In this document: positions 1 to 14,223 of the stretch, piece after piece
Layout: the number at the start of each line of letters is the position of its first letter
Numbering within the stretch: position 1 is the first letter of the stretch
Source: a bacterium
Lineage (GTDB): Bacteria; Myxococcota_A; UBA9160; UBA6930
DNA length: 62,960 bases
Direction of reading: 5' to 3'
NCBI GenBank assembly: GCA_024226235.1
Contig: JAAELW010000228.1
Coordinates: 1-62,960, forward strand
The notes under the pieces: generated by a model
Databases searched by the model: none
What the model saw: only the letters and a program-made list of their open reading frames with translations
What the model was told of the DNA's origin: nothing
Made by a program: the position numbers and the translations under genes

Positions 1-765
1 CACGTCAAGTACTACGCGGATGGCGCCATCTTCAGCCAGCTGATGCAGATGAGCGAGCCCTATCTCGATGGTCACGAGGGCGAGTGGATGATGCCGCCGG
101 ACCAGCAGCGGGCCGTACTCGAATCCTTCTGGACCCGAGGCTGGAGCATCCATATCCACGTGAACGGTGACGCCGGTCTCGACCTGGTCCTCGATCAGAT
201 CGAAGAGATGGAACGAATCCATCCCCGGGCCGCGGATCAGCGCGTGGTGCTGGAGCACTACGGATATGCGCGTGAGGACCAACACCATCGAGCGCACCGC
301 CTGGGAGTGGATGTCTCGAACAACTCCTACTACACCCACGAGCTGGCGCCCATCTATGCGGACAACGGGTTGGGAGTGGAGCGCGCGGAGGACATTTCAC
401 CGCTGGGCGGGCTGGCACGAGCGGGCGTTCCGATCTCGTTCCACTCCGACTACCCGATGGCGCCCGCCGAACCGCTGCGCCTGGCCTGGGTCGCGGTGAA
501 TCGCATCGGAAGTGATGGTCGCACCTGGGGAGAAGACCAGCGTCTCTCTCTCGATCTCGCTCTAAGGGCAATCACGATCGAAGGGGCGCGAAGCCTGGGG
601 CTGGAAGATGAAATCGGGAGCCTCGAAGTCGGAAAACGGGCGGACTTCACCATCTTGGATCGCGATCCCTACGACACGCCTCCTGATGAACTCGCCGACA
701 TCCCGATCTGGGGCACCGTTCTCGGCGGACGACCACACCCCATCACCACGCGCTCGATCGAGTAG
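1..765 (+). CDS. Amidohydrolase family protein (YtcJ-like), C-terminal part, truncated by window start
   Basis: Frame open from base 1 (HVKYYADGAIFSQLMQMSEPY...), amidohydrolase-3 C-terminal pattern ending in SLEVGKRADFTILDRDPYD. Confidence 0.85.
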   Translation, partial: HVKYYADGAIFSQLMQMSEPYLDGHEGEWMMPPDQQRAVLESFWTRGWSIHIHVNGDAGLDLVLDQIEEMERIHPRAADQRVVLEHYGYAREDQHHRAHRLGVDVSNNSYYTHELAPIYADNGLGVERAEDISPLGGLARAGVPISFHSDYPMAPAEPLRLAWVAVNRIGSDGRTWGEDQRLSLDLALRAITIEGARSLGLEDEIGSLEVGKRADFTILDRDPYDTPPDELADIPIWGTVLGGRPHPITTRSIE

Positions 766-815
766 GAGTAGCGGCAGGAACCACAGCACGCCGCCAACCA
801 TCTGGAGAGGATACC

Positions 816-1694
816 GTGAAACCGATCACCCAACTTGCTGGCGAACGCATTTCCGTTCGCGCCTACGATACCGGGCGTCCCGTACCGGCCGAACTAAGGA
901 CGAGTCTACAAGAAGCGGTGGCGGCGAGCTGTCTTGGGCCGCTTGGAAACCAGGTGCGCATCGAGTTGGTCGACGTCGACGAACTGGCCACGGGGGAGGC
1001 CCGCCGGCTTGGGACCTATGGGATCATCTCCGGCGCCCGGCTCTATCTCGTGACGGCGATCGAAGACACGGCCTCCGCACGTGTGGATCTAGGGTACTGC
1101 CTCGAAAAGATCATCCTGGAAGCCACGCGACTCGGACTGGGGACATGCTGGATGGGCGGGACTTTTCGTCGGGCAAACTTTGCCCAGAGCATCGAAGTGA
1201 AGGACAGCGAAATCGTCCCCGTAGTGACTCCAGTGGGTCATGCGACCAAGCAAAAGAGCCTGCGCGAGCGAGTGATGCGAAGGCTCGCGGGCTCGGATCA
1301 GCGCCAGCCCTGGGAGTCGATGTTCTTCCTCGAGGGCCGCGACACTCCGCTTCCCCGAGGCGGGCGTTTCGATACTGCGTTGGCCTGCCTGCGCTTGGCC
1401 CCTTCTGCGAGCAACAAGCAGCCTTGGCGGATCGTCGAGCAACGCGGCGAAGAGCGCTTCGATTTCCACCTCGAACGCACGCCGCGCTACAACGAAATGA
1501 TGCGTGGCATCGATCTGCAAATGGTCGATATGGGCATCGCAATGTGCCACTTCGACCTGGCTGCCACCGAGGCGGGCTACAAAGGCGAATTCTCCAGGCA
1601 CTCACCGGCGCCGAAGCTGGATCAAACGGAGTACATCATCAGCTGGCAGATGCGACCGGATTCGGATGCGGAAGTGAACCCTGACCAGCCCTGA
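816..1694 (+). CDS. Nitroreductase family protein
   Basis: 292 aa; nitroreductase-like RISVRAYDTGRPVP and C-terminal ASNKQPWRIV motif. Confidence 0.8.
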   Translation: MKPITQLAGERISVRAYDTGRPVPAELRTSLQEAVAASCLGPLGNQVRIELVDVDELATGEARRLGTYGIISGARLYLVTAIEDTASARVDLGYCLEKIILEATRLGLGTCWMGGTFRRANFAQSIEVKDSEIVPVVTPVGHATKQKSLRERVMRRLAGSDQRQPWESMFFLEGRDTPLPRGGRFDTALACLRLAPSASNKQPWRIVEQRGEERFDFHLERTPRYNEMMRGIDLQMVDMGIAMCHFDLAATEAGYKGEFSRHSPAPKLDQTEYIISWQMRPDSDAEVNPDQP

Positions 1695-1741
1695 TCCGGG
1701 ATTCAGTTGAATCCGCATCGGCCTGCGCCAAGTCCGTCGCA

Positions 1742-2527
1742 CTAGCCGATCGCGACTTCGCGCTTCCGGTCGATCCGCCAGCGGTGAAGGCCGCCCGCTT
1801 GATAGGCCACCACGAAGACGCGACGGCTGGTCTGGGTCCGGTTCGTCTGGGAGCCATGCACGAGATCACGATGGAAGTAGAGCACGCTGCCTGAGGGCAG
1901 CTCGGTTGCAACGGCCTCGCCATCGATCAGGTCGGTATCGGTATACAACGCCCCCAGCACGCCGCGATCTTCGAGACCTTTCAGGTTGCCGTGCTTGTGG
2001 CTACCAGGGATCACCCACAGACATCCGTTCTCCTTGGTCGAATCGTCCAGATAGGTGAGGGTGCTGACCAGGGATTCGAGGTCTTCGGCTCCGTTCTCCC
2101 AGTACAAGCCCTCCTGATGCCAGGGAAACGGTGCTCCACCGGGGCGCTTCACGTTGAGCTTGTCGCTGAAGACGCTGAGGGCGTCACACTGATTGATCGA
2201 CTGGACCGGTTGATAGAGGCGCGGATCGTCGAGCAGGACTTCCAGGCGTGCATCGAGGTGTCCGGTCGGCTCCATCGAGCGAACCGCCACGAGATCATCG
2301 CTCCATTCCCATTTGATCGTCGAGCCCAGCACGGTCTGGTACTTCTGGTTGTCGACCTGGTCGATCGGCCCGGCGTCACTTCGGCCGGCCGCTTCCACGA
2401 TCTGCGAGTGAACGTGCTCCGCGCCCGCCCGCATTCCTTCGAGTTCCTGATCGGTGAAGACCTTCTCCCTGATGAAGAAGCCGAGCTCATCGTATTGCTT
2501 CAATTCCGCGTCTGTCGCTCGATACAC
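1742..2527 (-). CDS. Phytanoyl-CoA dioxygenase family protein
   Basis: 261 aa; PFPWHQEGLYW and GSVLYFHRDLVHGSQTNRT (HxD...H Fe/2OG site). Confidence 0.85.
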   Translation of the reverse strand: MYRATDAELKQYDELGFFIREKVFTDQELEGMRAGAEHVHSQIVEAAGRSDAGPIDQVDNQKYQTVLGSTIKWEWSDDLVAVRSMEPTGHLDARLEVLLDDPRLYQPVQSINQCDALSVFSDKLNVKRPGGAPFPWHQEGLYWENGAEDLESLVSTLTYLDDSTKENGCLWVIPGSHKHGNLKGLEDRGVLGALYTDTDLIDGEAVATELPSGSVLYFHRDLVHGSQTNRTQTSRRVFVVAYQAGGLHRWRIDRKREVAIG

Positions 2528-2733
2528 GATCTTCGCCTCCGCTGGCGTTCTGGATTGGGGCTGCGCCGCACATTACTGAATTCTCCAGTGGAGCGAATCC
2601 AGAACCCGGCGCTACTGGGGCAAATTGACCCAGTACTGGTGCCAGACCCCTGGATCGTCCTCGCCAGGCAGTTGGATGCGATACCTTGCTTGCACCGAAT
2701 TGCGGCGGGGCGGGCCGAACGAGGAGGTCGATC

Positions 2734-3447
2734 ATGGCAGATCGGAACCGATTGCATCCCCTGGTGGCCAGACGTGCGATGCGCGCGCTTCGCCAGGATC
2801 CCGACAATACGGCGGCTGCGATTCAGGTCATCGGAGCACTCTCGGGAGATTCGGGCAGACGGGCCTTCAGACGCTTCCAGCGCTCCCCCCAGGGCGAGCG
2901 GATCCTGCGCGAGAAGCAGGACTTGTTCGACGTGCTGACGGATCACGAGCGGCTCCACGCAATGCCAGAAGGTTCGCTCGGCCGGACGATCGTCGATTGG
3001 TTCGAACGCGAAAACATCAGTACGGCCGGGCTGGCGCAGGCCAGCGCGGCCGCACGCGACGGTGCGGTTCGGGAGATTGGTGCGGACGAGGCGATCTATG
3101 GCTTGCGCATGCGCAACCTGCACGACGTGTTTCACGTGGTGGCCGGCTACGACCGCGATCTGCGAGGCGAGGCTGCGGTACTCGCGTTCACGGTCGCCCA
3201 GAGCTTCAACATGGGTGTCGCCTACCTGGTCTGGTCTGCGCTGCGTGCCTCGGGTTGGAACTCAGAGGGCGGCAGATTGATCCGCCAGGGGTTCCGCCGC
3301 GGCAAACGTGCGAAGCAATTGGTGGAGCAGGATTGGGAGGCCCTCTTCGAGCGCCCGATCGATGAGGTGCGTGAGGAGCTCGGCGTCGGAGCGCCGCCGA
3401 TCTACGAGCAGCTCCGTTCGGCAGGAGCCCCCGCGCTGAGCACATAG
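2734..3447 (+). CDS. Coq4 family protein (ubiquinone biosynthesis-like)
   Basis: ATG after gaggagg; RNLHDVFHVVAGYDRDLRGEAAVLAFTVAQ matches the Coq4 HDxxH-type region. Confidence 0.75.
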   Translation: MADRNRLHPLVARRAMRALRQDPDNTAAAIQVIGALSGDSGRRAFRRFQRSPQGERILREKQDLFDVLTDHERLHAMPEGSLGRTIVDWFERENISTAGLAQASAAARDGAVREIGADEAIYGLRMRNLHDVFHVVAGYDRDLRGEAAVLAFTVAQSFNMGVAYLVWSALRASGWNSEGGRLIRQGFRRGKRAKQLVEQDWEALFERPIDEVREELGVGAPPIYEQLRSAGAPALST

Positions 3448-3550
3448 CGCAGCCGCCCTCGAAGCGAGGCGGCTCCAGTCTTCCACCCATGCATTCCCGG
3501 GTATCCGCCCGGACCGGGCCCGACTCCGTCGCCGTTTCCGCCCGGCGAGG

Positions 3551-3610
3551 ATCTTCGCAGTGAGCCTGAAATCTTCGCTGTGAGCCTCAGATCTTTGCAC
3601 TGGGCCGCTC
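3551..3610. repeat. Three imperfect 20-bp direct repeats upstream of the EPS operon
   Basis: ATCTTCGCAGTGAGCCTGAA / ATCTTCGCTGTGAGCCTCAG / ATCTTTGCACTGGGCCGCTC, exactly 20-bp period. Confidence 0.85.
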
Positions 3611-3632
3611 ATCCACACTGCCCGTCGGGACG

Positions 3633-5225
3633 ATGGGGGAGCGTGGAATCTGCGCGGCCCTCTCGATCATGAAACGTTGTGGAGTACCCATCCTAGACGA
3701 CTCCCTGGGAGGTCTGTCTCCGGAGCTCCCGACCACCGTCATCGGTCCGTCGGGAGCCGGGCGCACTGTGCTCACGCTCGAGCTGCTGCATGCCACGATC
3801 TCCCGCGGCGAGACCGCGGCGCTGATCACCGGAGAGCCTCCGGAGCTCCTTCTCCGTCAGGCGGCAAGCCTCGGATTGACCCTGGAACATGCGATTCAAA
3901 GCGACCTGCTGACGATCCTCGAGCTGGATGCACGTGCCGCAATGCTCGTACGCGTGCACGGCGTCGACGCATTGATCGAAGCCATCGTCGAGGCTGCAGG
4001 CACCCCTGGCACACTCGTCATCGAAGACATCGGCAAACTGACCCAGGAAATCCTCGATGAAGTGACTCTGCGAGGCGTCGTGCGCCGATTGCTCGAGGTC
4101 ACACGGGGTTCGGGCGGAACGACACTGGTCACATCCAGCACATCGCGACTTCGTGGCACATCCGCTCTCGAGCAGGTGCTTGGCGACATGTCGGGAGCGA
4201 TCATCCAGCTGGATCGGGACGACGACGGCGAGAGGACTCTCCTCGTCAATAAATGCCGAATGGGCCGGCCCTTGGCAGAGAACCTCCGGTTCGAGATCAC
4301 CACCGGAGGGCTTCGGCAGTTGGAGCTCCATCCGGCCGTCCGAGAGGCGATCGGGAATGAAGTGGGGGAAACAGCCGAACCGACTCCCGAGTCCTTCGAC
4401 GTCGAAACCCGCCCCCGTATCCTGATCGCCGAAGATGAGCACTTCGAGCGCGAGCGCATCCAGGACATTCTCGGCGACGAGTACGACATCCGCTTCGCCG
4501 AAGACGGATTCGAAGCCCTCTCGGCTCTTCTGGTCGAAACCCCAGACCTCCTGCTGCTCGATCTCGTGATGCCGAGAGTGACTGGGGAAGAAGTGTTGCG
4601 CTCGCTCCGGGCCTCCGGCTCGACCCTTCCTGTCCTCGTCACGTCGAGCCGAGTCGGACGGGCAGCAGACCGGGTCCGCATGCTCTTCCAGGGTGCAGCT
4701 GACGTGATGGCAAAGCCCGTGAATGCCGTCGAGCTCAGAAGCCGGGTCACGACCCTGCTTGCCGCCTCTGCGGGTGGAACTCCGAAGTTGCAGGAGAACG
4801 ATGTCGCCGGTCTCCTGGCGAGGGGCAAGTCTTCGCATTGCCTGGACGAGGATGCCTTCGCGTTGCTCGTGGAACGTGCGAGCGAGTTTGCACGTGCCTA
4901 CCAGATGACATCGGCGCTGATGGCAGTGGAAGGCGAGCCGCAGATCATCGATGCCCTCGTATCCGTCGCAGACGAAACACTCCGCGGAGACGACGCCATC
5001 CTCGCGCTCTCCGAGGGACGAGTGTTGATGCTGCTCGTGTTGACGCCACCGACCACCGCGCAGGTCACTACGCGCCGGCTCGGAGAAGCCTTGGGACGCG
5101 CCAGGATCTCCCGCAAGGCGTTGAAGATCGGGCTCCAACCAGTGAACGGCGAGCCCCTCGAGCCCTTCAAAACCTTCTTCGACAACCTCTCACCCTGGCT
5201 CTCCGTAGAAAAGGGAAGAAAGTGA
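3633..5225 (+). CDS. KaiC/RecA-like ATPase domain, receiver (REC) domain and degenerate GGDEF-like C-terminus
   Basis: GPSGAGRT degenerate P-loop, LVIEDI; REC with EDE, LLLLDLVMP, VTSS, MAKP; C-terminus LRGDDAILALSEGRVLMLLVL resembles a GGDEF domain without the signature. Alternative start ATG 3669. Confidence 0.8.
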   Translation: MGERGICAALSIMKRCGVPILDDSLGGLSPELPTTVIGPSGAGRTVLTLELLHATISRGETAALITGEPPELLLRQAASLGLTLEHAIQSDLLTILELDARAAMLVRVHGVDALIEAIVEAAGTPGTLVIEDIGKLTQEILDEVTLRGVVRRLLEVTRGSGGTTLVTSSTSRLRGTSALEQVLGDMSGAIIQLDRDDDGERTLLVNKCRMGRPLAENLRFEITTGGLRQLELHPAVREAIGNEVGETAEPTPESFDVETRPRILIAEDEHFERERIQDILGDEYDIRFAEDGFEALSALLVETPDLLLLDLVMPRVTGEEVLRSLRASGSTLPVLVTSSRVGRAADRVRMLFQGAADVMAKPVNAVELRSRVTTLLAASAGGTPKLQENDVAGLLARGKSSHCLDEDAFALLVERASEFARAYQMTSALMAVEGEPQIIDALVSVADETLRGDDAILALSEGRVLMLLVLTPPTTAQVTTRRLGEALGRARISRKALKIGLQPVNGEPLEPFKTFFDNLSPWLSVEKGRK

Positions 5226-6631
5226 CGCTTCGCCCCATTGCACACGCGCTCCTTGTGATGCTCTTGTGGGCCGGAATGGGCATGGCGGAAGGGACTGCGG
5301 TCGAGGAACGGCTCACCCAGGCCAATCAGTGGCTCGCAGATCGCGAACGTTGGGACGACGCGATCGAAATCTACCGCGATGCACTACGCCAGGACCCGAC
5401 CCTGACGGATGCGAGCATCCGACTCGCTCGGGTGCTCGCCTGGCAGCTCCGCTACGACGAGGCCCTTGCCGTACTCGATACGCTGATCGGCGAAGCCGGA
5501 AACCCGGAATACCTGATCGAACGAGCAGAGATCTACTCCTGGGCGGGCCAGCTCGACGCAGCCGAGAGGGACTTCGACGCAGTCCTCATGCAGGACCCGA
5601 ACCACGCCCGCGCCTACCGGGGCCTTGCCCGCGTCTTCATGTGGTCTGAGCGAAAGAGCGAAGCTGATCGCGCATTTCGCCGGGCTCTCTCTCTCGAAGA
5701 GAACGAGGAAGCGAGACGCGATTGGGACCAGCTCCGATCGAACGACCGTCCCTCCCTGGAACCCAGCATAGAATTCGTGACGGATTCATACGACTTCGAT
5801 GCATTGCGAGTCGGTGCGATAGCCACCTTCTCTCCCGATTTCGAAACCACGCTTTCGATTCGGACAAACTGGTTGAAGATCGACCATCTCGCAGAGCCCG
5901 AGTTTCTCCGTGGCGATACGAGCGAGAAGGGAAGAGAGCTCGGCATCGATCTGGAGCGTGGTCTTTCCGAATTGTGGTCCGGCCGTCTGTCCCTCGCCGG
6001 CCGTTCCTGGCGCGACGCACCGGATCGACTCATCGGCGAGCTGGAATTCGACTATTCCGGGTGGTCGGACATGACATTCCAGATCGCCGCAGGCCACCGC
6101 GATCAATGGGAAGACGCCCACTCCCTGCCGGCGCTTCGGAACGCGATCCAGACTACATACGCACGTCTCGGTGTCTGGCGGCACCTCGGTGAGCGTTCGG
6201 AACTGTATGCAAACATCGAGGGTGGCCGCCTCACGGATGGGAACCGGCTCGTCGGCAGCTACATGGAGGTGGGCTTTGCACCCCTCGAGCAGACCGATGC
6301 GCAACTCGTCCTGTCCGGGAGTTTTGCCAGCTACCACCGCCACGAAGACATCTACTACAGCCCCGAACTCGATGGATCGCTCGGCCTCCTTGCACGCAAG
6401 GATCTGGCCCTCTCGCCGACTCTCGGCCTTCGGCTCGAAGCCGGTGCCGGAATGGGAAGTTCGAGGGAATTCGGTGCGTGGAGCAGCGGCTTGGCGTTGA
6501 GGGCCGCCGGAATCCTCGAATGGAAGTTCGACTCCTGGGCACTGCGCGCGGAAGGCAGATTCGACCAGTCACAACGTGCCGCCACCTACCGTACATCGAA
6601 GGTCGGGCTCGAGCTGAAACGGAGTTTCTGA
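5222..6631 (+). CDS. TPR plus outer-membrane beta-barrel protein (PgaA/YaiO-like)
   Basis: GTG start overlapping upstream TGA (GTGA); signal peptide, TPR repeats, then alternating beta-barrel sequence ending in ...SKVGLELKRSF (terminal Phe). Confidence 0.8.
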   Translation: MTLRPIAHALLVMLLWAGMGMAEGTAVEERLTQANQWLADRERWDDAIEIYRDALRQDPTLTDASIRLARVLAWQLRYDEALAVLDTLIGEAGNPEYLIERAEIYSWAGQLDAAERDFDAVLMQDPNHARAYRGLARVFMWSERKSEADRAFRRALSLEENEEARRDWDQLRSNDRPSLEPSIEFVTDSYDFDALRVGAIATFSPDFETTLSIRTNWLKIDHLAEPEFLRGDTSEKGRELGIDLERGLSELWSGRLSLAGRSWRDAPDRLIGELEFDYSGWSDMTFQIAAGHRDQWEDAHSLPALRNAIQTTYARLGVWRHLGERSELYANIEGGRLTDGNRLVGSYMEVGFAPLEQTDAQLVLSGSFASYHRHEDIYYSPELDGSLGLLARKDLALSPTLGLRLEAGAGMGSSREFGAWSSGLALRAAGILEWKFDSWALRAEGRFDQSQRAATYRTSKVGLELKRSF

Positions 6632-6633
6632 TC

Positions 6634-7941
6634 GTGAACCGGGCAACCTACGCCCTGGCAGTTTCCGGCATCGTCATCCTGCTCGTCGTGCTCTCGTTTC
6701 TGCTCTTCAGCATACTTCTGGACCTTCGCATCGAATTGCCGACGAGGTTCCTGCAGACATCGTTCCTGATGGTCCTGGGCTTCCTCGTGCTGTTGATCAT
6801 GCGCTACTTCGGCCTGCTCTGGTTCTCCTACCTGGCCCAGCTCGAAGGCGAACGGAGCTCAACGACGAAGACCCCCCTGGTGACGATTTTGGTCCCGGCC
6901 TACAACGAAGGCCTGGTGATCCAGGGCGCGATCCGGTCCCTCTTCGAGCTCGACTACCCGCGTTACGAAATCCTCGTAATCGATGATGGCTCGACCGACG
7001 ACACCTACCAGAACGCTCGGGCCTTCGAAGGCGACCACGGACGCGTCACCGTCCGGGTGATCCGCAAGCGCAATGGCGGCAAGTCCTCGGCGCTGAACAC
7101 AGGAATCGCCAATGCCAAAGGTGAGCTGATCCTCTGCATGGACGGCGATTCGCGGCTGTCTCCCGACACACTTCGGAAGGCCGTTCGCCACTTCTCCTCT
7201 CCCTCTATCGCTGCAGTGGCGGGAAGCGTGAAAGTCGCCAACCGGAACAGCTTGCTGGCTCGGCTTCAAGCACTCGAGTACGTCGAAGGCCTCAACATGG
7301 TCCGCAAGGCCCAGGGCTTCTTCCATGCGGTCAACATCATTCCTGGTCCGATCGGCATGTTCCGCCGCGGAGCGCTGGATAGCGCCGGGCGCTATGACTC
7401 GGACACCTTCGCCGAGGATTGCGACCTCACGCTCAAGATGCTGATCGGCGGCTGGCAGATCCACTACGAACCGGGCGCGGTCGCCTACACCGAAGCTCCT
7501 GAACATGCCCTGGACCTGCTCAAGCAACGCTACCGCTGGACCCGCGGCATCCTCCAGGCGATGAAGAAGCATCGACGCACGCTCGTATCCCCGTTCTCGA
7601 CACCGACTGCGTGCGCAACTCTCTGGTACATGGTCTTCGAGGGCATCGCCTGGCCGTTCATGAATGTCTTCGCTCACATCTTGTTCGTCTTCGTGGCCTA
7701 TTCCCATGGGAATGCCCTTCCATTGGTATTCTGGTTCTTGCAGCTCACGATTCTCGACATGGCAGCCGCTCTCTACTGCGTCTCCGCCGAGGAAGAGAGC
7801 ATCGGCCTCGTTCCCTACGCCATCTTCTACCGGATGTTCTTCGCCCTCTGCATCGATTTCGCCAAAGTGTTCGCGACTTTCGAAGAGTTGTTCGGTGTGC
7901 GAATGGGCTGGGGCAAACTCGAACGACTCGGGAGGATCTAG
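6634..7941 (+). CDS. Membrane glycosyltransferase family 2 (PgaC/poly-N-acetylglucosamine synthase-like)
   Basis: GTG start in frame; VTILVPAYNEG, IDDGSTDDT, MDGDSRLSPD, FAEDCDLTLKM, QRYRWTRG plus TM helices. Confidence 0.9.
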   Translation: MNRATYALAVSGIVILLVVLSFLLFSILLDLRIELPTRFLQTSFLMVLGFLVLLIMRYFGLLWFSYLAQLEGERSSTTKTPLVTILVPAYNEGLVIQGAIRSLFELDYPRYEILVIDDGSTDDTYQNARAFEGDHGRVTVRVIRKRNGGKSSALNTGIANAKGELILCMDGDSRLSPDTLRKAVRHFSSPSIAAVAGSVKVANRNSLLARLQALEYVEGLNMVRKAQGFFHAVNIIPGPIGMFRRGALDSAGRYDSDTFAEDCDLTLKMLIGGWQIHYEPGAVAYTEAPEHALDLLKQRYRWTRGILQAMKKHRRTLVSPFSTPTACATLWYMVFEGIAWPFMNVFAHILFVFVAYSHGNALPLVFWFLQLTILDMAAALYCVSAEEESIGLVPYAIFYRMFFALCIDFAKVFATFEELFGVRMGWGKLERLGRI

Positions 7942-8136
7942 ATGGACCTCGTTCCCGTACTATCCACCGTCATCTTCGTGGCAACGATCGCGACGATGAT
8001 TCTCGCCGTCTTCTCCTACGCGGCGTTCAAGCTCCGTGAGAAGCGAAAGCCGAAGGGATCGGATGAAAAGCCCGTCTTCTTCCATCACTTCAAACTCGCG
8101 GGAGCAGACGAGAATGCCGACGCGGGCCCGGAGTGA
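7942..8136 (+). CDS. Small single-TM protein, last gene of EPS operon
   Basis: 64 aa, begins directly after the GT stop; N-terminal TM helix then charged tail. Confidence 0.7.
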   Translation: MDLVPVLSTVIFVATIATMILAVFSYAAFKLREKRKPKGSDEKPVFFHHFKLAGADENADAGPE

Positions 8137-8178
8137 CGGGAACACCGCTCTACGAGCCCTGCCTGGCGATGGTCGAAG

Positions 8179-8991
8179 CTAGCGGCCGCTGAATTCGGGC
8201 CGCCTCTTCTGCAAGAAGGCAGCCACGCCCTCGCTGAAGTCACTCGAGTTGGTGAGTTCCCGCTGTGTTTCGCGCTCGAGATCGAGCTGGGTTCCGAGAT
8301 CCCCGTGCTCGGCGGCCGCAAAGAGACTGCGAAGGCGCGCGAGCGCACGAGTCGGGCCCTCGGCGAGGCGTCGGGCGAGCTGCATGGCCAGTTCCATCAG
8401 CTCATCGTCCGGAACACAGCGCCAGATCAAGCCCCACTCTTCCGCTTTCTCGGCCGACAGGGATTCACCCAACAACGAGAGCCCGAGCGCCCTGGCACGA
8501 CCCACCAGGTGTGGCAGGTAGTAGCTCGAACCGACGTCGGGCACGATGCCGAGTCTCGGAGCGAAGACGAGCTTGAAACTGGCCGAGCGCGCAGCCAGCA
8601 CGAGATCGGCGGATAGTGCCAGACCGACTCCGCCGCCGGCAGCCACGCCGTTCACAGCCGAAATGATCGGCACACGGAGTGCGAAGAGTTCGCGAGCAAG
8701 CGGATTGAACCTGACGTCCATGCTGTGCGCGACTCTGTCGCCCAGAGTCTCGCCTGGCTCCTCGACTCCCGCACCCAGGTCGGCTCCCGCGCAGAAGGCC
8801 CGGCCGGTGCCGGTCACGACGAGTGCGCGCAGCCGCAAATCGTCGCCCACGACGCGCAATGCGCTGCGCAGGTCGTCGATCAGGTCAGCATTCATCGCAT
8901 TCAGCACATCCGGGCGATCGAGGCTCAACAGAGCCACCGCCCCGTCCTGCTCGAGCTGCACGGTCTTCCAATCACCCAGCTTTTCGACCAT
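8179..8991 (-). CDS. Enoyl-CoA hydratase/isomerase family protein
   Basis: LSLDRPDVLNAMN, GRAFCAGADL, AVNGVAAGGGVGLALSADL. Confidence 0.9.
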   Translation of the reverse strand: MVEKLGDWKTVQLEQDGAVALLSLDRPDVLNAMNADLIDDLRSALRVVGDDLRLRALVVTGTGRAFCAGADLGAGVEEPGETLGDRVAHSMDVRFNPLARELFALRVPIISAVNGVAAGGGVGLALSADLVLAARSASFKLVFAPRLGIVPDVGSSYYLPHLVGRARALGLSLLGESLSAEKAEEWGLIWRCVPDDELMELAMQLARRLAEGPTRALARLRSLFAAAEHGDLGTQLDLERETQRELTNSSDFSEGVAAFLQKRRPEFSGR

Positions 8992-9164
8992 CGGATCCTC
9001 CCCAAGCACCCGGCAACCGGGGCCGAACGGGATATCCTCCTGGAACTGGCCCGGCCGGTCAACGAGGCCCGGATGGTTCCAGAGGCCCCGATGCGCGGTA
9101 CGCTACGGGCCCGCACGGCCGATCTCGGCCGATCTCACTGACACGAAGGGCGCTGACGGGAAGG

Positions 9165-10406
9165 ATGATGGCCAGTCTCGCCGAGCTGCTTCGCACCGCG
9201 AAGACCCATTTCGACCTGACTGACCCCGGGCATCGGGAGAGCCTCCATCGGCTCACGTCCGAACTACTCGAGCAGGGGCAGATTTCGACAGAGGATGTCG
9301 AAACTGCTGCGCTCGCACCGGAGGCTCCGCTCGAATTCCGGCTGGCGGCAAAGCTCGTGGACTCGCGCCGCTGGCTGCTCGAATGCTCCCGACCGGCGCG
9401 GGTCGGCGTCGTATTTGCGATGTGGGGTGAACATCATCGGTTGCTGCCGCGCGACGCTGCCAACCCCCACGGCGAGGACTCTTTGCATGTGAAGCTGGCC
9501 CAGCTCGAATGGGCGACCGCCGGCACTGCAATCGATTGGAAGTTGTACGCGGTGGACGATGGCTGCCCACATGGGAGCGCCAGGCTTGCCCGACGCCGGG
9601 CTGCCGAGCATTCAGCACGGGATCACGTCAAAGTGCTGGAGCTGGACGAGGCGCTACCAGCCAGTGGCGGCCCGCTGACCGGGCTCACCTCTGTCCAGGA
9701 TTCCCGCAAGGCGGGCGCGATCATTCTCGGCTGCATCCAAGCGCTCGAGGATGGCGTGGATGCGGTGATCTACACCGACGCGGACAACTCCGTCCATCTG
9801 GGGCAGATCGGACTACTGCTGCGACCCTGGGTCGATCGCGACTCAAAGGTGGTGCTAGGCGACCGCAAGCACCGGAAAGCAGTGCTCGTGAAACAGGAGG
9901 CCCGCTGGGGAGAGGGCATCGTCTTGCTGCGCCACATGCAGCGGATGATTGGCCGCGCGATCTATGCGCGGGGGATCCAGGACACTCAGGCAGCATTCAA
10001 ATTGTACGCGAGCGAAGTACTCGGAAGGATCCTGGAGCAGCCGACCGTCTACGACTTCTCGTTCGACAGCGATTGGATCCTGGCCAGCCTCGCGCAGGGT
10101 GTGGAACCGGTCCAGGTGCCGTTCGCATTCATCGATTCTGCAGCCGAGTCCGCCTCCATCGCCCAGGGCCCGATGACGACCTGGGAGGCGCTATTGAAGG
10201 GGCTTGCTTCCGCGGTCCGCCGCCATGGGGTCGAGCACGACCGGGAGATGGCGCGCGTTCTGGATGAAGAAATCCAATCTGCGGACGATCTCGATCGGAT
10301 CATCGATCATCTGCCTCCGGCACTCGCGAATGCCCCATCCGAACGCCTCGGAGACCCGGAGTTGATGTCCCCCTCCGAAATCCGCGATTGGATTCGAAGC
10401 CACTAG
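9165..10406 (+). CDS. Glycosyltransferase family 2-like protein
   Basis: VDDGCPHGSA and IYTDADNSV (DxD) motifs; start ATGATG after aagg. Confidence 0.7.
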   Translation: MMASLAELLRTAKTHFDLTDPGHRESLHRLTSELLEQGQISTEDVETAALAPEAPLEFRLAAKLVDSRRWLLECSRPARVGVVFAMWGEHHRLLPRDAANPHGEDSLHVKLAQLEWATAGTAIDWKLYAVDDGCPHGSARLARRRAAEHSARDHVKVLELDEALPASGGPLTGLTSVQDSRKAGAIILGCIQALEDGVDAVIYTDADNSVHLGQIGLLLRPWVDRDSKVVLGDRKHRKAVLVKQEARWGEGIVLLRHMQRMIGRAIYARGIQDTQAAFKLYASEVLGRILEQPTVYDFSFDSDWILASLAQGVEPVQVPFAFIDSAAESASIAQGPMTTWEALLKGLASAVRRHGVEHDREMARVLDEEIQSADDLDRIIDHLPPALANAPSERLGDPELMSPSEIRDWIRSH

Positions 10407-10457
10407 AATTCTGCCCGTCGTGCGTGACATCACACGAAGCGTGCTTATGCGTATGAT

Positions 10458-11237
10458 ATGGCTACAGGTCCGGACTGGGAAACAATCGGCCCACCTCCGC
10501 TCGGCTTGTTTGCGACCGAGCAGGTCCGGGCGCTGCGTGACCTTGCCTCCGGCCGGGAGCGCCGGAAAGTCGCCCGGCGGGCAGTACGCGGCGACGGGCA
10601 TGCAGTATTGGTTTTGCCCGGGTTGCTGGCGGGGGATTTCTCGACTGCGCCACTGCGCGGGTTTCTGCGCGATCTTTGTTACGACGCACGGGGCTGGAAA
10701 CTCGGAATCAATAGAGGACCGGAACCGGACAAGATTCGCGCGTTGGGCGATCGACTGGAGCATCTGTGCGACCGCCATGGACGCCGCATCAGCCTGATCG
10801 GCTGGAGCCTGGGCGGCATCTTCGCCCGTGAGTTGGCACGCGCTCGTCCGGATCGGGTGCGGCTGGTCATCAGTATGGGCTCACCGTTCCGCGATATCTC
10901 TGCAACCCACGCGACACGGCTCGTGCCGCTCCGCCGTGGCGACACGCCGCACGGTGAGAATCGCGACCTTCATACCTGGCTCCGCCAGCCCCTCGACGTC
11001 CCGACGACCTCGATCTACAGCCGCACGGACGGCATCGTCCATTGGCAGAGTTGCCTCGAAGAGGAAGGGCCAGAGCGCGAGAACATCGAAGTCGATTGCA
11101 GCCACACGGGCATGGGCTTCCATCCGACGGTGCTCGAAGTGATCGCCGATCGGCTGGGGCAGCCCGAAGGCGAGTGGCACCCCTATGCGGACCGGCCCAG
11201 CGGCCCGAAACGGCAGGCACACCGGCGCGCTTCCTAG
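10458..11237 (+). CDS. Alpha/beta hydrolase
   Basis: LVLPGLLAGD, LIGWSLGGIFARELA nucleophile elbow, late His (SHTGMGFHP). Confidence 0.8.
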   Translation: MATGPDWETIGPPPLGLFATEQVRALRDLASGRERRKVARRAVRGDGHAVLVLPGLLAGDFSTAPLRGFLRDLCYDARGWKLGINRGPEPDKIRALGDRLEHLCDRHGRRISLIGWSLGGIFARELARARPDRVRLVISMGSPFRDISATHATRLVPLRRGDTPHGENRDLHTWLRQPLDVPTTSIYSRTDGIVHWQSCLEEEGPERENIEVDCSHTGMGFHPTVLEVIADRLGQPEGEWHPYADRPSGPKRQAHRRAS

Positions 11238-11259
11238 CCTCTCGCGGTAGAATTCCGGG

Positions 11260-12414
11260 ATGACGACACGAACTCTCCGGACCCCGCTCTGTGATCTGCT
11301 CGGAATCGAGTACCCCATTCTCAGCGCAGGAATGGGCCCCAGCCTGATCGGCGAATCTACAGGCGCACCCGTCGAACTGGTCGTCGCGGTATCCGAGGCC
11401 GGGGGCCTCGGCGTGCTCGGCGGCGCCGGCTTCACCGTGGAAGAGATGCGCGACTCGATTCGCGAGATCCGCAAGCAGACGGACAAACCTTTCGGCGTGG
11501 ACCTGCTGCTCCCCGCGCAGCAGGTAGCCAGCGGCGACGCCCCCGCGGAGGACACACACGAAATTCCGCTGAAGGAGGTCCTCCAGAACCTTCCCCAAGC
11601 CCACCGCGAGTGGTTCCTGCATATCCAGAAGGAACTCGACCTGCCTGACACGGAGGCGGTATTGAGCAGCGGCACCACGACGGCCCGCCCCCACGCGGCA
11701 GTGGAGGCCTGCATCGATGAACGCGTACCCCTGTTCTGTGCGGGCCTCGGAAACCCGGGCTTCATGGTCGATGCTGCACACCAGGCGGGCATGAAGGTGC
11801 TCGGCATCGCCGGCAACTCGAAGAACGCGGGACGCATAGCAGCATCCGGTGCGGATCTGGTCGTGGCCCAGGGCCACGAGGCGGGCGGACATACCGGCCG
11901 CGTCGGATCGATGGCCCTGTGGCCTCAGGCGATCGACGCATCCGCCCCGACACCGGTTCTGGCAGCCGGCGGGATCGGCGACGGGCGCGGCCTGGCCGCG
12001 GCATTGGCGATGGGCTGTGTCGGAGTCTGGGTGGGCACGCGCTTCCTGGCCTCGAACGAAGGCGGCGCCCTCGACCTGCAGAAGGCTGCCATCGTCCAGG
12101 CCACCGACGAGGACACACGCCGCACCACGATCTACACGGGCAAGACGTCACGGGCGACCTACAACCGCTTTCACGACCTGTGGGATGAATCGAAGCTGGA
12201 ACCGCTGCGTTTCCCGGTGCAGGTCATGCTGGCCTCGGCCGTGGTGGACATGTTCAACAACGCCGGGAAGGTGGAATACGTGGGACCCTTCGCCGGCCAG
12301 GTCTCCGGGCTGATCCACGAAATCAAGCCGGCAGCGGAAATCGTGAATGACATGGTCGAGGAGGCCGTGGAGATCCTGACCCGCCGTCTGCCAGAGAGCG
12401 TGACCGCCTCATAG
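11260..12414 (+). CDS. Nitronate monooxygenase family flavoprotein
   Basis: LGIEYPILSAGMGP, GADLVVAQGHEAGGHTGRVGSM, VLAAGGIGDGRGLAAALAMGCVGVWVGTRF. Confidence 0.9.
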   Translation: MTTRTLRTPLCDLLGIEYPILSAGMGPSLIGESTGAPVELVVAVSEAGGLGVLGGAGFTVEEMRDSIREIRKQTDKPFGVDLLLPAQQVASGDAPAEDTHEIPLKEVLQNLPQAHREWFLHIQKELDLPDTEAVLSSGTTTARPHAAVEACIDERVPLFCAGLGNPGFMVDAAHQAGMKVLGIAGNSKNAGRIAASGADLVVAQGHEAGGHTGRVGSMALWPQAIDASAPTPVLAAGGIGDGRGLAAALAMGCVGVWVGTRFLASNEGGALDLQKAAIVQATDEDTRRTTIYTGKTSRATYNRFHDLWDESKLEPLRFPVQVMLASAVVDMFNNAGKVEYVGPFAGQVSGLIHEIKPAAEIVNDMVEEAVEILTRRLPESVTAS

Positions 12415-12474
12415 AAACGGTTTCCCGCCAACGAGGGGAAAGCCATGACGAGCCCGGCAGGACGCTCTGTGCTC

Positions 12475-13293
12475 CTACCCTGGCGCGTTTCCCGTGAACA
12501 CGAACTCACGCAGGGGGATTCGAAGAGGCGCCGGGCCGAAGTTCTGCTCCAGTTCATCGGCAAGAGCCCGGATGATCGTCGCTGGCGATGCGGTCGCCCG
12601 GTCGCGGATCTCCAAGATGCCAGGGTTTCCTTCGACGAACCCCCGGGCGACCTCCTCAGAGGACGGGCGTTCAATGGTCGCGTCGACGACATGGGCTTGC
12701 ATTGCCTCGAAACCCAGGGTCTCGAAGAGCCCCAGGGTGGAGTCCAGCGGGCAGGAGCCAAAAGGAACCTCGAGGAAGCCAGGCGGCTCCGAGGCGAAGT
12801 AGCGTGCGATGGTCTCATGGGCGATTCCTGCGACCCGGTTCGTCTCGAATGAATCCCAGACGTTGCACCCAAGGAACCCGCCGGGGCGAAGGACACGGAA
12901 CATTTCCGCCAGACCCTTGGCGATATCAGGAAAGAACATGATGCCGAACTGACAAACGACTCCGTCGAACGCCTGGTTCTCGAAAGGGAGGGAAAGGGCA
13001 TCGGCCAGTTCGTATCGCACTCCCGGAAACGCGCCCCGATGCTCCCTCGCGTACTCCAGCATGCCAGGATTGAGATCCGTCGCCACGATCTCCACGTCCC
13101 TCGAGAGTGCCTTGTGAAGAAATTCCGTTCCAATGCCCGTGCCGCAGGCTACTTCGAGAATGCGCCCATGGTCGATCGCATCGGTCACACGTTCGGCCAT
13201 GTCTGCAGCGGAAAACTCGAATAACAGAGGGCCCAGACAAGTGTCATAGACGGCCGGAATCGATCCGGTAAAGGAGGCGTGAGGGTCGCTCAT
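12475..13293 (-). CDS. Class I SAM-dependent methyltransferase
   Basis: RILEVACGTGIGTEFL, VATDLNPGML, FRVLRPGGFLG. Confidence 0.85.
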   Translation of the reverse strand: MSDPHASFTGSIPAVYDTCLGPLLFEFSAADMAERVTDAIDHGRILEVACGTGIGTEFLHKALSRDVEIVATDLNPGMLEYAREHRGAFPGVRYELADALSLPFENQAFDGVVCQFGIMFFPDIAKGLAEMFRVLRPGGFLGCNVWDSFETNRVAGIAHETIARYFASEPPGFLEVPFGSCPLDSTLGLFETLGFEAMQAHVVDATIERPSSEEVARGFVEGNPGILEIRDRATASPATIIRALADELEQNFGPAPLRIPLREFVFTGNAPG

Positions 13294-13722
13294 GCCGGAA
13301 CCGATCCGACATTGCATGCTAGGTTGAAACCCGGTGTCGTTTGCGATCGGTCCAAGATGTCCTCGATTCGGCTTCTTGCAGTGCCCGCATGTCTTCGCTC
13401 TGCGGATCCGACTTCAGCGACGGGGCTGCCTACTGGCCAATGCCGGTAGTGTGCCCGACCCTACCATGCCTGGACGCGGGCCCGCGTCCCGGCGATGGTC
13501 AGAGTGCTTGGGTCCGTTGCAGAAAGACACTCGCAACCGCAACTGACAAGAGGATGCCTATCCCGATCGTAGCCAGTAGCTGACGGAAAGCGACTCCACG
13601 AGCACACCGGGCTGCGCCAGGTCCGAGACCCCGCGCAGCTGAAGTCACGAAGCCTTGATCGAGTGGTCAGGCCCGCTATTGGATTCTGTTGGACTCCAGC
13701 ACACGCGTCAGAAAGGCAAATC

Positions 13723-14223
13723 ATGGCAACCCTCGACGACAAGATTCTGCAGCGATTCGACCCCGAGGTCGCCAGGACCTTCTTGAAGGCACCGGGTGGA
13801 TTCCTGACCGGCCTGCCCAAGTACCTGGGTGTCGACATCGTCGACGTCGGACCCGGCACCCTTCGCGCCGAGATGACGGTAAAGGACGAGTTGCGAACAC
13901 CTTTTGGCAACATTCACGGTGGTGTGCTCGCAGCCGTTTGCGACCACGTCCTGGGTTGTGTCTGCTACCCGCTGATGGAACGCGGTGCATGGGCAGCCAC
14001 CACCGAGTTCAAGATCAACCTTCTGGCTCCGGTCAGTAGCGGTGTGATCACAGCGGATGCGAAGATCGTCTCGATGACACGGTCGACCGCGGTCGTCGTG
14101 ATCGAGGCCGTGAACGAAGGACGCCTGGTCTGCGTGTCGCAGGGCACAGTGACGATCCGGCCTCCTCGCAAGAAGAACTCGCCCGCACCCGACGGCTCCT
14201 CTGCGCCTGGCAATGAGTCATAG
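13723..14223 (+). CDS. PaaI-type hotdog thioesterase
   Basis: TPFGNIHGGVLAAVCDHVLG and ATTEFKINLLAPV. Confidence 0.85.
   Translation: MATLDDKILQRFDPEVARTFLKAPGGFLTGLPKYLGVDIVDVGPGTLRAEMTVKDELRTPFGNIHGGVLAAVCDHVLGCVCYPLMERGAWAATTEFKINLLAPVSSGVITADAKIVSMTRSTAVVVIEAVNEGRLVCVSQGTVTIRPPRKKNSPAPDGSSAPGNES

Follow-up and report, generated by a model that had tools for sequence, protein, structure and literature searches.

A BcsE-like regulator at the head of a PgaC-like exopolysaccharide operon, a probable c-di-GMP-gated secretion system

Descriptions of BcsE come from beta- and gammaproteobacteria with cellulose systems like that of E. coli, and a fusion of smaller proteins has been proposed as its origin (PMC7439463). 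The protein is composed of degenerate NTPase, receiver (REC) and GGDEF domains with an N-terminal part modelled on KaiC, binds c-di-GMP via RxxD motifs in both its REC and its GGDEF domain and is recruited by the single-pass peptide BcsF (PMC7439463, PMC11470070). In PleD the c-di-GMP I-site is made up of R359, D362 and R390 (PMC7288161). For the Pga system, residue R222 of the glycosyltransferase PgaC is reported to matter for c-di-GMP (PMC10333796), and pga-like operons without detectable pgaB and pgaD have been noted in environmental bacteria (PMC7112194). Here we compare these systems with a four-gene locus found in a window of 62,960 bases, the window being the whole stretch of DNA that was analysed.

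Layout, recurrence and accessory genes of the locus

The locus spans positions 3633-8136 of the + strand and consists of four real and tightly packed open reading frames, in the order REG-OMP-GT2-SP:

3633-5225, + strand: REG, three-domain regulator of 530 aa (KaiC-like NTPase, REC, degenerate GGDEF)
5222-6631, + strand: OMP, 469 aa with a GTG start, TPR superhelix and 16-stranded beta-barrel, putative exopolysaccharide export channel
6634-7941, + strand: GT2, 435 aa with a GTG start, PgaC-like processive family-2 glycosyltransferase with membrane helices
7942-8136, + strand: SP, 64 aa, single-pass membrane protein with a conserved motif in its cytosolic tail

REG and OMP overlap by the four bases GTGA at 5222-5225, OMP and GT2 are separated by 2 nt and GT2 and SP by 0 nt, so that all reading frames and junctions listed in the first-pass annotation of this DNA were confirmed. 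The start of REG is uncertain (ATG 3633 or ATG 3669), the KaiC-like domain beginning at about residue 16, downstream of both. A Coq4-like gene precedes the operon and an enoyl-CoA hydratase gene follows it on the opposite strand. No c-di-GMP riboswitch or other known RNA was found upstream, Rfam giving zero matches over window positions 1-14000. At 9159-10406 the window also encodes a glycosyltransferase-like protein with a weak GT2 match; in L029, the nearest relative, it likewise lies beside the enoyl-CoA hydratase gene.

About 17 other loci have the order REG-OMP-GT2-SP while the flanking genes change, and the four-gene arrangement is therefore not due to chance. Of 61 nearby genomes, 10 have relatives of GT2 (E < 1e-80); three of these, the source genome among them, have two copies each. 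The loci around them preserve the arrangement of REG, OMP, GT2 and SP, in both order and strand. A sample of 237 genomes of the phylum provided five more loci from four further families, all with the four genes, some of these loci lying at contig edges and being therefore partly visible. The order was seen in all five newly fetched GT2 matches with E < 1e-160 (L075-L079); in the three fetched matches near 1e-80 GT2 is part of long open frames, and neither REG nor SP is present. Thus the order, whose conservation elsewhere had been named as a test of the operon, recurs across several families of the phylum, and the source genome itself has it a second time. Beyond the phylum, one contig scan yielded one intact relative and one fragment, and no REG homologs were found in a plasmid search. 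Two side observations concern GT2 relatives: open frames of 1100-1500 codons with a related GT2 domain (L080, L081, L082) are possible fusion proteins, and a GT2 fragment of 54-55% identity lies on a short contig labelled Actinomycetota (L041), possibly through a binning error.

Exceptions to the order were of three kinds. One locus is decaying (L035, 4660-7790), with two in-frame stops in REG, OMP missing and GT2 and SP intact; in another REG is relocated downstream of a deacetylase (L030/L093); and two tandem REG genes stand ahead of OMP in L034 (3601-7032) and also in L091. The second, paralogous operon of the source genome (G000) lies on contigs C371 and C101 (L028, L084), the ends of which share at least 80 identical bases, and contains REG, OMP, GT2, SP and a fifth gene together with a divergent putative hydrolase and a deacetylase. 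That C101 adjoins the left end of the window was ruled out, as the two do not overlap and their amidohydrolase end genes are different paralogs.

Most relatives add at least one of a polysaccharide deacetylase (PF01522), a 333-aa protein and a fifth gene whose membrane-anchored product has a part resembling DUF4350 or a deacetylase. The 333-aa protein is probably secreted and maybe a TIM-barrel hydrolase, on the basis of one weak TIM-barrel match that names no glycosidase family. Homologs of the deacetylase, the putative hydrolase and the fifth gene were not found across the 62,960 bases of the window, and the nearest relative (L029) likewise has none of them. Since the relatives and the second operon carry a deacetylase and a putative hydrolase, we consider the window locus a stripped core; the absence of a PgaB-type deacetylase, remarked on in the first-pass annotation, is true of this locus but not of the typical form. 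PF01522 has three matches elsewhere in the genome, two of them at the second operon, and the window operon might borrow accessory enzymes encoded elsewhere.

The regulator and its candidate c-di-GMP site

REG matches the Pfam families KaiC (PF06745, 3e-19) and Response_reg (PF00072, 1e-18), and its AlphaFold model has a pLDDT of 78. The following features were located in it:

3744-3767, + strand: P-loop GPSGAGRT, REG residues 38-45, Walker lysine replaced by Arg
4419-4748, + strand: REC domain, residues 263-372, phospho-acceptor motif LLLLDLVMP intact, D310
4659-4670, + strand: R343-A-A-D346 in REC, aligned by hhalign with R306-A-T-D309, the second BcsE I-site motif
4794-5222, + strand: GGDEF-like fold without the GGDEF signature, residues 388-530, from AlphaFold secondary structure
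4983-4994, + strand: I-site motif R451-G-D-D454, kept in 17 of 17 REG proteins
5010-5024, + strand: SEGRV at the position of the GGDEF hairpin, active-site signature lost
5076-5078, + strand: R482, 31 residues after R451, kept in 17 of 17

The C-terminal region is modelled with the GGDEF-type order of elements and a beta hairpin at the position of the GGDEF motif, as expected from the initial reading of a GGDEF-like fold without its signature, and the signature GG[DE]EF is absent from all 17 REG proteins. R451, D454 and R482 have a spacing (3 and 31) identical to that of PleD R359, D362 and R390, and RxxD with an Arg at +31 is found in 17/17. The source genome has about 18 GGDEF domains. As a control we used canonical GGDEF domains parsed from it, where RxxD was scored in 10 of 14, one of the 14 (L098) having been misparsed and actually having the motif, and the whole triad in 6 of 14. 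Retention of RxxD can have structural reasons. At the level of sequence, the I-site residues that are invariant in all 17 proteins lacking GGDEF give strong support to the sensing rather than synthetic role first suggested for this gene.

A further resemblance is to PelD. The PelD_GGDEF profile (PF16963) scores 13.9 bits (0.05) on full-length REG and 15 bits on its REC-degenerate GGDEF part, below the gathering score of 27 bits, and has matches in 5 of 8 REG relatives (best 7.5e-4). A REC-degenerate GGDEF protein beside PEP-synthase-like and PQQ dehydrogenase genes (L092, 6009-11597) scores 25.7 bits (1.1e-5) with the same profile.

REG matches the KaiC ATPase profile, with Arg for the P-loop Lys, and has a single KaiC-type domain. 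It could be that REG is mainly a phosphorylation-dependent or ATP-dependent (KaiC/RecA-like) assembly factor, the degenerate GGDEF domain having given up c-di-GMP binding and acting as a scaffold for protein-protein contacts. Such a role would fit the receiver of class-1 REG proteins, which retains the acidic pair, phospho-Asp, Thr/Ser and Lys, and the intact P-loop (Walker A) of class 2. However, the P-loop lysine of class 2 is Arg in 8/8 class-1 sequences, the class-2 receiver is without the phospho-acceptor Asp, distant relatives have lost Walker A and the motif retained everywhere is the I-site, and we regard this role as improbable. The motif pattern of the two classes suggests that both decayed in parallel, starting from an active ancestor. 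As some REG paralogs occur by themselves next to unrelated genes, the idea that REG is always tied to polysaccharide genes was ruled out. Proteins of KaiC-REC-degenerate GGDEF architecture away from the synthase operon were recorded as L087, L089 and L090, some with an intact Walker A.

The closest architecture to REG is that of BcsE. In a Foldseek search of full-length REG against the PDB the top 50 matches were KaiC chains and three chains of E. coli BcsE (9fp0, 9fo7, 9fnn), the BcsE match (E ~7e-15, ~550 columns) spanning all three domains with a high rmsd. The rmsd is high because the domains are arranged differently, and the overlay therefore supports domain order and folds and not the same domain arrangement. 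A comparison of REG with BcsE by hhalign was collinear from end to end at a weak P of 0.005, against 0.17 and 0.68 for two controls, with a probability of 7%; it paired R343-D346 of REG with BcsE R306-D309 and R451 with BcsE R415. RxxD in the REC domain is found in about half of the REG relatives, distant ones included. The BcsE family profile (CBP_BcsE, PF10995) had no match in the genome and was positive on the E. coli control. With PF10995 absent and an hhalign probability of 7%, identification of REG as BcsE by direct sequence match is not significant alone. REG is thus not BcsE by family definition; by architecture and motif it looks BcsE-like and looks as if it works in the same way. The initial reading was supported, with the amendment that the regulator comes closest to BcsE in its architecture and not to any part of the Pga system.

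Synthase, small membrane protein and export channel

GT2 belongs to glycosyltransferase family 2 by profile and keeps the catalytic motifs DGD, ED and QRYRW. The best named model is PgaC_IcaA (TIGR03937), which at 205.9 bits does not reach its equivalog cut-off of 422.3 bits and leads other models by about 90 bits; models of NodC, CelA and hyaluronan synthase match too. Identity to E. coli PgaC is 33% over the catalytic domain, and the PgaC-like assignment made from the letters alone agrees with these values. The missed cut-off and the additional matches leave a sizeable chance, though clearly the smaller one, that the polymer is not PNAG-like and that GT2 produces a different sugar chain, as a member of the broad superfamily of NodC, hyaluronan and cellulose synthases. 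This view concerns the product and is compatible with the regulatory part of our explanation. The lead of PgaC_IcaA speaks against it, as do the polysaccharide deacetylases that accompany the relatives and fit an N-acetylated polymer. In GT2 a Gly is aligned to PgaC R222, and c-di-GMP sensing may therefore have moved to REG.

SP has one hydrophobic transmembrane helix and a tail with a PVFFRRY-like motif conserved in relatives. A single hydrophobic stretch was also counted in the SP of 14 relatives and in BcsF, and two in PgaD. Family profile searches with SP gave zero matches, the PgaD Pfam family included, and the comparison with the BcsF profile was not significant (P 0.27); homology of SP to BcsF or PgaD was thus judged unsupported for want of a sequence or profile match to either. 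At all intact loci SP is directly 3' of GT2, and it remains beside GT2 where REG is relocated (L093), which makes GT2 the likeliest partner of SP; SP might, like BcsF, serve to dock REG. What had been described as a 64-aa membrane protein in the place of PgaD therefore has its position after GT2 confirmed and its identity as PgaD unsupported, having one membrane helix rather than two and no sequence match.

These data also bear on whether the locus is simply a divergent pgaACD, in which SP would be a reduced PgaD, c-di-GMP would act on GT2-SP and REG would be an ordinary upstream regulator without a physical role at the synthase. The PgaC_IcaA match, the identity to the PgaC catalytic domain and the constant place of SP behind GT2, also where REG has moved, are all in accordance with it. 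We nevertheless find it rather unlikely, given a GT2 at 206 of the 422 bits and with Gly for R222, an SP with one helix instead of two and zero PgaD family matches, and a REG that is co-conserved with the synthase across families.

The AlphaFold model of OMP (pLDDT 90.8) contains TPR helices and a barrel of 16 strands, and the best five Foldseek matches of OMP in the PDB are BcsC (three), PgaA and PelB, with a TM-score of 0.81 to PgaA (normalised to PgaA). All are exopolysaccharide exporters, in agreement with the PgaA layout of TPRs and outer-membrane beta-barrel recognised initially.

Proposed mechanism and comparison with known systems

Taken together, we think it fairly probable that the locus encodes a c-di-GMP-gated, synthase-dependent exopolysaccharide secretion system with a sensor of BcsE architecture. 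Domain order, motifs, gene order and fold matches come from sequence and models; polymer type, c-di-GMP binding, contact between REG, SP and GT2 and the direction of regulation are what we infer. GT2 would polymerise an N-acetylhexosamine-type polymer and pass the chain across the inner membrane, and OMP would lead it through the periplasm by its TPRs and across the outer membrane by its barrel. SP would be a small membrane subunit on the synthase, and REG perhaps docks on SP. REG would be a cytosolic sensor, unable to make c-di-GMP, with the conserved I-site (R451, D454, R482) as its binding site for this messenger; binding would shift the arrangement of REC and NTPase and so lead REG to activate or assemble the synthase, in the manner of BcsE in cellulose secretion. 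Phosphorylation of the intact receiver domain may be a further input.

More speculatively, the KaiC-REC-degenerate GGDEF protein with a single-pass peptide could be a portable c-di-GMP control module for cellulose and PgaC-type synthases, and the relatives found here, with P-loop and phospho-receiver motifs partly intact, could be living cousins of the ancestor of the fully degenerate BcsE. A description of this combination was not found in our literature search. If our reading were correct, the three-domain order of BcsE, with its motifs intact or half-intact, would head a PgaC-type operon in a lineage other than beta- and gammaproteobacteria, and a second polymer system would be known in which the c-di-GMP sensor is separate. 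It would open a route to study how KaiC-like ATPases turn into scaffolds of secretion machines, and where c-di-GMP enters a synthase without PgaC R222 becomes a directly testable question.

Among known systems, PgaABCD shares with the locus a PgaC-like GT2 directly followed by a small membrane protein and a PgaA-type exporter of TPRs and 16-strand barrel. It differs in that GT2 here stays below the PgaC cut-off and is without R222, SP has one transmembrane helix and PgaD two, the PgaB deacetylase/hydrolase is missing from this locus and a cytosolic three-domain sensor heads the operon. In the Pel system PelD, which is a GAF-containing membrane protein, also has a degenerate GGDEF domain with RxxD that serves an exopolysaccharide operon, in line with the weak profile match, but REG has KaiC-like and REC domains instead of the membrane part and GAF. 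PleD-type cyclases have the same REC-GGDEF order and I-site spacing, whereas REG has lost the active site and has the extra KaiC-like domain. From the E. coli type II cellulose system the locus differs in its PgaC-like partner synthase, with no PilZ domain found in GT2, and in that BcsQ and BcsR are not seen in this locus. In relation to BcsE-BcsF, the receiver phospho-site of REG is intact and its P-loop less degenerate, and SP is neither a BcsF homolog by profile nor adjacent to REG. What REG and BcsE have in common is the order of a KaiC-like NTPase, REC and degenerate GGDEF domain within ~525 aa, RxxD and the absence of the GGDEF motif, and in both cases the protein leads an operon that also encodes a single-pass membrane protein of 63-64 aa and serves polysaccharide secretion.
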